A DNA stretch of 64,000 nt from NCBI GenBank assembly GCA_902594705.1, contig CACJNI010000004.1, positions 1 to 64,000 on the forward strand, given 5' to 3'. The notes beneath the pieces were generated by a model. The model had not been told where the DNA came from, made no database searches, and was given only the letters and a program-made list of their open reading frames with translations. Below, one piece after another: positions 46,959 to 52,446 of the stretch. Origin of the DNA: an uncultured Pelagibacteraceae bacterium (GTDB taxonomy: Bacteria > Pseudomonadota > Alphaproteobacteria > Pelagibacterales > Pelagibacteraceae). Position 1 is the stretch's first letter; each line of letters begins with the position of its first letter. A program made the position numbers and the translations under genes.

Positions 46959-47234
46959 TTAGAGCAAAATTCCCTCAGATTTGAGCAGTTTTTTCTTGGT
47001 TTTTATACCACCTTTTCCAGAATATCCTCCAAGGGATCCATCAGACCTGATTACTCTATGGCATGGTATTTTAGGAGCATATGGATTTTTTCCAATAGCA
47101 TTCGCTACAGCTCTAACAGCTTTAGGCTTATTAATACCTTTTGCGACGTCAGAATAGGTTAAAACACTACCTTTTTTGATAGTTTTTAAATATTTCCAAA
47201 CTTTAATTTGAAATTTAGTACCTTTTAGGATCAT
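46959..47234 (-). CDS. Single-domain methylated-DNA-[protein]-cysteine S-methyltransferase
   Basis: A 91-residue protein consisting of only the DNA-binding/active-site domain of the Ogt/MGMT family. GTKFQIKVWKYLKTIKKGSV and TYSDVAKGINKPKAVRAVAN form the helix-turn-helix and arginine finger. KIPCHRVIRSDGSLGGYSG holds the acceptor cysteine. Full-length homologues carry an extra N-terminal domain of 70-90 residues, not found here. The cysteine is kept, unlike ATL proteins. The ATG at 47234 lies 18 bases after a strong RNA hairpin, so it may have a structured leader. Confidence 0.82.
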   Translation of the reverse strand: MILKGTKFQIKVWKYLKTIKKGSVLTYSDVAKGINKPKAVRAVANAIGKNPYAPKIPCHRVIRSDGSLGGYSGKGGIKTKKKLLKSEGILL

Positions 47235-47432
47235 ATAAAGAAAAACCCTGTATCTCTGCACCTTTTCAGGTACAAAGATCAGTAGTTTTTTGGCACGTCG
47301 TTGTATGCGCTACCGCCATGCCTTCCACCCCGCAATTTTAGCGCTACTCTGCGTGGTTTTCTGCCCTCTGGGCTTGAATCTCTCGATTTTTCCCCAGATG
47401 GTCAGTTAAGAGTTGCCTCTTAATTCATTAAA
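47235..47432 (-). ncRNA. Candidate structured RNA or leader upstream of the MGMT gene
   Basis: This stretch is about 52% GC by hand count (47281-47400) against a very AT-rich surround, and codes for nothing evident. Read on the minus strand it begins just after a TATGAT box (47444-47439). It forms TTAAGAG-GCAA-CTCTTAA (47423-47406), then possible stems CTGGG/CCCAG, CCAC/GTGG and GGCAT/GTGCC. It ends in a 12-bp stem capped by GAAA (47279-47252) that includes two G-T pairs valid only on this strand. The class is not recognised; it does not read as tmRNA, RNase P, SRP or 5S RNA. Confidence 0.5.
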
Positions 47433-47518
47433 GAGATTATCATAGTGCAAATATGATTAGTATCACTTTATAGTTGATTATTAAGGGTTTTTTAACAGCT
47501 GTGAATAGCGTTAACAAA

Positions 47519-47698
47519 CTATCTAGGTCCAACGAAAATTAGAATAAAATAAGATAAATAGAAAATTATTGTTAAAACAGACAAGAAATATACTTCTAAT
47601 GATTTTCCATTCTTTTTGTAAACTAAATAACTCAATATAGTTAAACCTAAAGATATAATTAAAAAATAGCTTGTAGGAATTTCACCATCTATAGTCAT
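47519..47698 (-). CDS. Small membrane protein, 59 residues, function unknown
   Basis: An open frame from ATG (47698) to TAG (47519) encodes MTIDGEIPTSYFLIISLGLT, a first hydrophobic helix, then a basic turn VYKKNGKS, and a second hydrophobic helix ending ILIFVGPR. Two transmembrane segments with a positive loop are a sensible small-membrane-protein layout and unlikely by chance in this composition. No Shine-Dalgarno sequence is seen. It lies between the candidate RNA and the recombinase gene. No family recognised. Confidence 0.5.
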   Translation of the reverse strand: MTIDGEIPTSYFLIISLGLTILSYLVYKKNGKSLEVYFLSVLTIIFYLSYFILIFVGPR

Positions 47699-47719: not shown

Positions 47720-47748
47720 TTGACATTTAAAATCACTTAATATATTAC
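47720..47748 (+). promoter_or_regulatory. Promoter of the tyrosine recombinase gene
   Basis: TTGACA (47720-47725) is a perfect -35 box. A 17-bp spacer leads to TATTAC (47743-47748); a 15-bp spacer would give TATATT. The -10 region runs into the left arm of the dyad at 47744-47778, so a bound protein would block initiation. Confidence 0.5.
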
Positions 47749-47778
47749 TAATGATAATTAATTGTTATCAATAGTAAT
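47744..47778. repeat. 35-bp near-perfect dyad before the recombinase start codon
   Basis: Two 14-nt arms, ATTACTAATGATAA and TTATCAATAGTAAT, are inverted copies with one mismatch, separated by the 7-nt centre TTAATTG. The right arm ends three bases before the ATG at 47782. Inverted arms around a 6-8 bp centre is the layout of core crossover sites for tyrosine recombinases. It also overlaps the gene's own -10 box, so an autoregulatory operator is equally possible. Confidence 0.55.
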
Positions 47779-52369: not shown

Positions 52370-52446
52370 TGGTCGGGGTGGTAGGATTCGAACCTACGGC
52401 CCCTTGGTCCCAAACCAAGTGCGCTACCAGGCTGCGCTACACCCCG
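52370..52446 (-). tRNA. tRNA-Pro (anticodon TGG)
   Basis: On the minus strand the acceptor CGGGGTG pairs with CACCCCG, the anticodon arm CTTGGTTTGGGACCAAG gives TGG, and the T-arm is GTAGGTTCGAATCCTAC. Encoded CCA, 77 nt. TGG can read all four proline codons if modified. It directly precedes the NDUFS4-like gene (4 nt). Confidence 0.97.

Follow-up and report, generated by a model that had tools for sequence, protein, structure and literature searches.

Bacteria of the SAR11 group are among the most abundant marine heterotrophs. IMES-2 RNA, which forms one naming group of marine orphan RNAs together with IMES-1, is reportedly expressed at a high level in the ocean, papers of 2009 being reported to describe it as highly abundant in ocean RNA. 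To our knowledge, it is an orphan RNA whose function is still unknown. Other stand-alone structured RNAs whose functions are unknown or linked to proteins are represented by raiA/ModT, OLE and GOLLD. IMES-2 is likewise stand-alone and structured, the likeness being one of description only. It is much smaller than OLE (about 600 nt), and within the genomes searched its carriers are all Pelagibacteraceae. Hfq and 6S RNA are usual in Alphaproteobacteria; 6S RNA has the shape of a single extended hairpin that opens into a bubble at its centre.

The locus described here lies in a window of 64,000 nucleotides (positions 1 to 64,000 of contig CACJNI010000004.1) from an uncultured Pelagibacteraceae bacterium, the source genome. 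It matches the Rfam IMES-2 model (RF02035) in sequence and structure over all 141 positions. Added to the model here are a terminator-like hairpin on the 3' side, a promoter block further upstream and a predicted P3–P4 loop-loop helix. The best explanation would be that the locus is a stand-alone gene for the IMES-2 RNA of Pelagibacteraceae, a small RNA about 195 nt long with kissing loops that acts through its folded shape; as a whole, this is probable, with considerable room for doubt. Sequence comparison supports membership in IMES-2, the predicted fold, the putative loop-loop helix and a portable unit of promoter and hairpin. IMES-2 is thus placed in SAR11, where its transcription unit can be defined, its loop contact covaries and genomes of one genus clearly differ in having it or not, all of which makes its function testable. 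Since Hfq and 6S RNA were undetected in IMES-2 hosts, a structured RNA there becomes more interesting.

Family membership and fold

The elements of the locus are the following.

47290–47430, minus strand: IMES-2 core, RF02035 positions 1–141 (cmscan, 162 bits, E 1.1e-42)
47406–47423, minus strand: P1, 7-bp stem with a GCAA loop (Rfam structure line; covariation, 77 sequences)
47361–47405, minus strand: P2, long hairpin with an internal loop and a GAGA tetraloop (Rfam structure line; covariation)
47327–47357, minus strand: P3, hairpin with a 15-nt loop, of which bases 47340–47344 are predicted to pair with the P4 loop (Rfam structure line)
47292–47322, minus strand: P4, hairpin with a 13-nt loop, of which bases 47307–47311 are predicted to pair with the P3 loop (Rfam structure line)
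47235–47290, minus strand: P5, GAAA-capped terminator-like hairpin with a U tract, outside the Rfam model (-24.6 kcal/mol, z -7.2)
47439–47444, minus strand: -10-like box TATGAT (promoter scan)
47460–47469, minus strand: AAAGTGATAC in the -35 position, conserved among relatives
47500–47517, minus strand: conserved upstream element of two adjacent DnaA-box-like 9-mers, the first degenerate in the source genome
46962–47234, minus strand: MGMT DNA-binding-domain protein of 91 aa (PF01035, E 1.7e-32), a neighbour and not part of the RNA

The first-pass annotation proposed a candidate new structured RNA, possibly from a known marine orphan family such as the IMES group, and suggested cmscan against Rfam, a homology search in SAR11 genomes and inspection of pairing covariation. 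The cmscan search names the feature IMES-2: the score passes the curated threshold (gathering score 54.7), and all stems of the model are present in the window copy, one P3 pair being marked as non-standard. The feature is a member of an already catalogued family, so the family is not new. The guess at the IMES group was correct, and the reading as a structured RNA is supported; its novelty is lost, RF02035 already covering the sequence. A 6S identity, also considered, found no support, with no 6S match in the window or the source genome. Cmscan gave no IMES-1 match in the window, and a search for IMES-1 (RF02034), considered as a replacement where IMES-2 is lacking, gave none in 24 genomes; the controls were equally without a match, so this negative carries no weight. 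Only one IMES-2 copy was found in the source genome.

The minus strand of 47225–47432 folds at -71.8 kcal/mol (z -6.1), which was equalled by 0 of 200 shuffles. A plus-strand reading was rejected, because the fold of the same interval is weaker (z -3.7, 2 of 200 shuffles as good) and no Rfam match occurs on that strand. GC content is 44.9% in 47235–47432 and 49.6% in the 141-nt core versus 27.6% in the window, and the value for 47235–47432 is reached by only 0.06% of 198-nt window stretches taken in steps of 20. The GC-rich island in AT-rich DNA that had been noticed is thus real, the figure of about 52% given for it being a little high. The 7-bp stem with a GCAA loop, the three further stems and the GAAA hairpin at the 3' end that had been read from the letters all exist on the minus strand and correspond to P1, to P2, P3 and P4 of the family model, and to P5, respectively.

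For covariation analysis, 199 usable loci were dereplicated to 77; a broken copy (L052) was dropped and a partial locus (L198) added, which again gave 77 rows. These rows are related, so the counts below are not independent. P1 is paired in 100% of cells, and four of its seven pairs have changed on both sides. The two helices of P2 are paired in 95.0% and 94.2% of cells, those of P3 in 97.6% and 84.4%, and P4 in 87.4%; one of the nine model pairs of P4 (columns 130/149) forms in none of the 77 rows. When the Rfam stems and the kissing pairs are taken together, 94.4% of cells are paired (77 rows); shuffles give 79.7%, and slid controls do not exceed 43.1%. Covariation in the 77 relatives thus supports the stems of the model and the predicted formation of P1–P4 in IMES-2 RNA.

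The dropped copy (L052, 258–462), from a single-cell genome, is broken in the P3 loop and runs into a recombinase ORF. Its break could reflect a genuine rearrangement or a chimera formed during amplification.

Pairing between the P3 and P4 loops

The cores of the P3 and P4 loops are reverse complements of each other. Both loops are open in the structure line printed by cmscan, a line that cannot show pseudoknots. In the 77 rows, the five kissing pairs are paired in 97.7% of cells, versus 89.6% in shuffles and at most 64.2% in slid controls. Thirty-three cells are changed on both sides, versus 5.8 in shuffles, and none of 500 shuffles is as high; the covariation score is 0.284, a value that 0 of 500 shuffles reach (0.119 in shuffles), and slid controls stay at or below 0.121. 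Of the five measures, two do not exceed shuffles: the number of pairs with changes on both sides (reached by 220 of 500) and the number of further pair types (236 of 500). Among the five pairs, two are invariant and thus uninformative, and the outermost one is broken in 9 of 77 rows.

At the two varying pairs, six P3/P4 combinations were observed: CG/CG (56), UA/UA (7), CA/UG (6), UG/CA (5), UU/AA (2) and AA/UU (1). All are complementary, in 77 of 77 dereplicated sequences. On a tree built without these columns, a minimum of 10 changes is required for P3, for P4 and for the joint type alike. A stricter test on independent branches could use only four pairs, all four of which agree (p 0.125).

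These data support pairing of the large P3 and P4 loops with each other, predicted to involve 4–5 base pairs. A compact fold and a link between molecules are both possible, because covariation cannot separate them: P3 could pair with P4 of the same molecule or with that of a neighbour. Self-pairing of P3 with P3 is excluded as a general rule by UU/AA and other non-palindromic types. Among the papers listed by a literature search, none discusses IMES-2 or its loop-loop pairing; the P3–P4 pairing may already be annotated in the Rfam seed or in the 2009 description.

The loop motif GUAGCGC (47307–47311 and 47340–47344) also occurs in the D arm of tRNA-Pro (52373–52446). This is probably a coincidence, since the P3 and P4 loops change in step.

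Occurrence in SAR11 and possible role

Scanning named genome contigs for an exact 24-base pattern taken from the 5' hairpin gave at least 119 matching stretches; among the matches listed (80), all are SAR11 by title (Pelagibacteraceae, Pelagibacter or Pelagibacterales). The source genome falls into the genus and family groups of the carriers, as expected for the marine origin of IMES-2. The homology search found the RNA across Pelagibacteraceae: in a draw from the family, 134 of 197 genomes, in 12 of 14 genera, are over the IMES-2 cut-off. A weak hit in a further genus (g230), which would make 13 of 14, was judged false, and weak hits in three genomes (G434, G405 and G267; L209–L211) were dropped, since by eye they are without IMES-2 hallmarks. 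A class-wide draw gave IMES-2 in 2 of 289 genomes, namely the source genome and one relative of its family.

When 60 relatives and the source genome were searched with strict filters, IMES-2 was found in 21 of 61 genomes, all in the source genus; for another family of the same order, the count was 0 of 24. In a repeated search (default filters, E up to 10), two positives passed and none of 31 negative or doubtful genomes did; all 31 stay at or below 15.5 bits, and IMES-2 was found in 0 of 23 re-searched genomes of the source genus. Many near-complete genomes of this genus thus have no IMES-2, which argues against a core housekeeping role. Carriage by viruses was searched with one exact 5'-hairpin pattern, which gave 0 hits in viral contigs.

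Hfq (PF17209) was found in 0 of 18 SAR11 genomes, some of them incomplete and 10 of them IMES-2 carriers; the controls matched in 5 of 14, E. coli and Caulobacter among them. A very divergent Hfq could escape this search. 6S RNA (RF00013) was found in 0 of 61 SAR11 genomes and, when E values up to 10 were admitted, in 0 of 18, with a match in the Caulobacter control, while alpha tmRNA, searched to confirm that structured RNAs can be picked up in SAR11, was present in 18 of 18. Non-detection of Hfq and 6S RNA is not proof of their absence.

IMES-2 could be a trans-acting small RNA of the antisense type that recognizes mRNAs by base pairing through its open loops (GUAGCGC). Its size, the U-tract terminator in most members and the long conserved loops would suit such a role. 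However, the letters of the P3 and P4 loops change in step, as would follow from pairing between them, and Hfq, which an Hfq-dependent small RNA requires in its host, was detected in 0 of 18 SAR11 genomes, while the E. coli and Caulobacter controls match. We therefore regard antisense action as unlikely.

The non-detection of 6S RNA, set against tmRNA in all 18 genomes searched for it and the matched Caulobacter control, together with the high abundance of IMES-2 reported in the 2009 literature, could suggest a functional substitute for 6S RNA, i.e., an abundant RNA that binds RNA polymerase. The two RNAs are of similar length (187 model positions in 6S RNA), but IMES-2 folds into several separate hairpins, one after another and with loops that pair, rather than into one long bubbled hairpin. 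In addition, many genomes, and a sister family among the genomes searched, are without both RNAs. Substitution for 6S RNA is therefore very unlikely.

Action of IMES-2 through shape is tentatively favoured, because the loops keep pairing while their letters change and Hfq was not detected in the hosts. The P3–P4 kissing helix would produce a compact fold, or possibly link molecules, and the RNA may bind a protein or a large complex. Its regulatory role could depend on growth or on conditions and would not be that of an Hfq-assisted antisense RNA. Our best guess for the candidate role is a compact protein-binding regulator. In a far-reaching version, to which we give little credence, IMES-2 would stand at the centre of global RNA-based regulation in much of SAR11, replacing both Hfq–sRNA networks and 6S RNA; it would be made compact by the P3–P4 kissing helix (possibly also linking molecules) and served by a dedicated upstream activator site, and the lineages losing it would have rewired that control.

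Transcription unit and chromosomal neighbourhood

The TATGAT box reported just upstream of the RNA is present. Taken alone, it is weak evidence, because a promoter scan of the window gives 8 promoter-like sites versus 4.2 in shuffles. GTGATA is located at 47461–47466, 16 nt upstream of TATGAT on the minus strand. Of 77 relatives, 72 have a AAAGTGATA-like block (at most two mismatches) at about -38, compared with a mean of 3.2 and a maximum of 7 in shuffles, and 74 have TTWTNCACA (at most one mismatch) in the upstream zone, compared with a mean of 5.5 and a maximum of 11. The latter element is mostly found about 74–77 or 83–88 nt upstream of the RNA, positions roughly one helical turn apart, as would be the case for a predicted protein-binding site. 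The upstream 9-mers were compared with the DnaA box consensus. DnaA control of the promoter was rejected and the likeness stays a resemblance, TTWTCCACA not being enriched genome-wide: three genomes contain 38, 45 and 25 hits, versus 59, 46 and 46 for the backward control. No cluster of TTWTCCACA marking an origin was found in these genomes, the closest pair among the hits seen being about 550 bases apart.

In 76 of 76 relatives, the 76 nt that follow the core give a fold of -15 kcal/mol or below, versus 6.8% of 380 shuffles; a criterion of -10 kcal/mol is weak, since 47% of shuffles pass it. The shuffles for promoter elements and the 3' fold ignore the relatedness of rows. The hairpin is closed by a T run in 63 of 76 relatives and is without a clear one in 13. 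A strict terminator scan flagged none, P5 of the window included. Transcription would start near 47432 and end near 47237, and its product would be a discrete small RNA of about 195 nt.

Genomic setting was analysed in 204 loci, of which 153 have at least 300 bases on both flanks; removal of seven duplicates left 146 distinct loci. Flanking genes (MGMT, mnmA, nuclease, recombinase) were named by short sequence motifs. IMES-2 is located before MGMT in 104 of these loci, after mnmA in 41 and with a nuclease gene upstream in one. The promoter-like block and the 3' hairpin travel with the RNA across these sites. Of the two settings initially offered, a stand-alone RNA and a leader controlling MGMT, the former is supported by these three chromosomal settings and the conserved flanking elements.

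According to the leader explanation, the transcript would begin ahead of the RNA, and at the hairpin polymerase would either terminate or continue into MGMT. It agrees with the window, where the MGMT start codon lies within a few bases after P5, and with the 104 loci having MGMT downstream. In the 41 mnmA-site loci, however, no MGMT follows, and in those examined the next ORF is mostly on the opposite strand (L103 is an exception). In G158 (genus g5), the RNA is located between genes which we take to be nuclease-like and SRAP-like, with MGMT elsewhere. Conversely, 14 of 19 genomes with a located MGMT have no IMES-2 over the cut-off. A position upstream of, and co-oriented with, MGMT is thus not constant, as 42 of 146 distinct loci have another site. 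Because the promoter-like block and the 3' hairpin accompany the RNA at non-MGMT sites too, a cis-acting MGMT leader is highly improbable as the function of the family. Read-through may feed MGMT in the source genome, where the gene directly follows the hairpin, but it cannot be the general purpose of the family. The stand-alone gene remains the preferred explanation.

The region upstream of MGMT was inspected by eye in 19 genomes. In five without IMES-2, a small ORF runs up to MGMT, while the order at the same place in the window is small ORF, IMES-2, MGMT; in six others, a presumably acetyltransferase-like gene lies upstream of MGMT. In the window, the small ORF is a hydrophobic one of 59 aa (47522–47698, minus strand) with no Pfam match, and the small protein at this position differs between genomes.

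A divergent tyrosine recombinase gene (PF00589; 47782–48735, plus strand) adjoins the block of small ORF, IMES-2 and MGMT. A recombinase-like ORF, identified by short motifs, is located upstream in 81 of 104 distinct MGMT-site loci, so the site is recurrent and possibly recombination-prone. Between the recombinase and the small ORF, at about 47743–47778, lies an AT-rich palindrome, ATTACTAATGATAATTAATTGTTATCAATAGTAAT, which is perhaps the recombinase's own site; some genomes that have no IMES-2 contain a similar palindrome ahead of MGMT.
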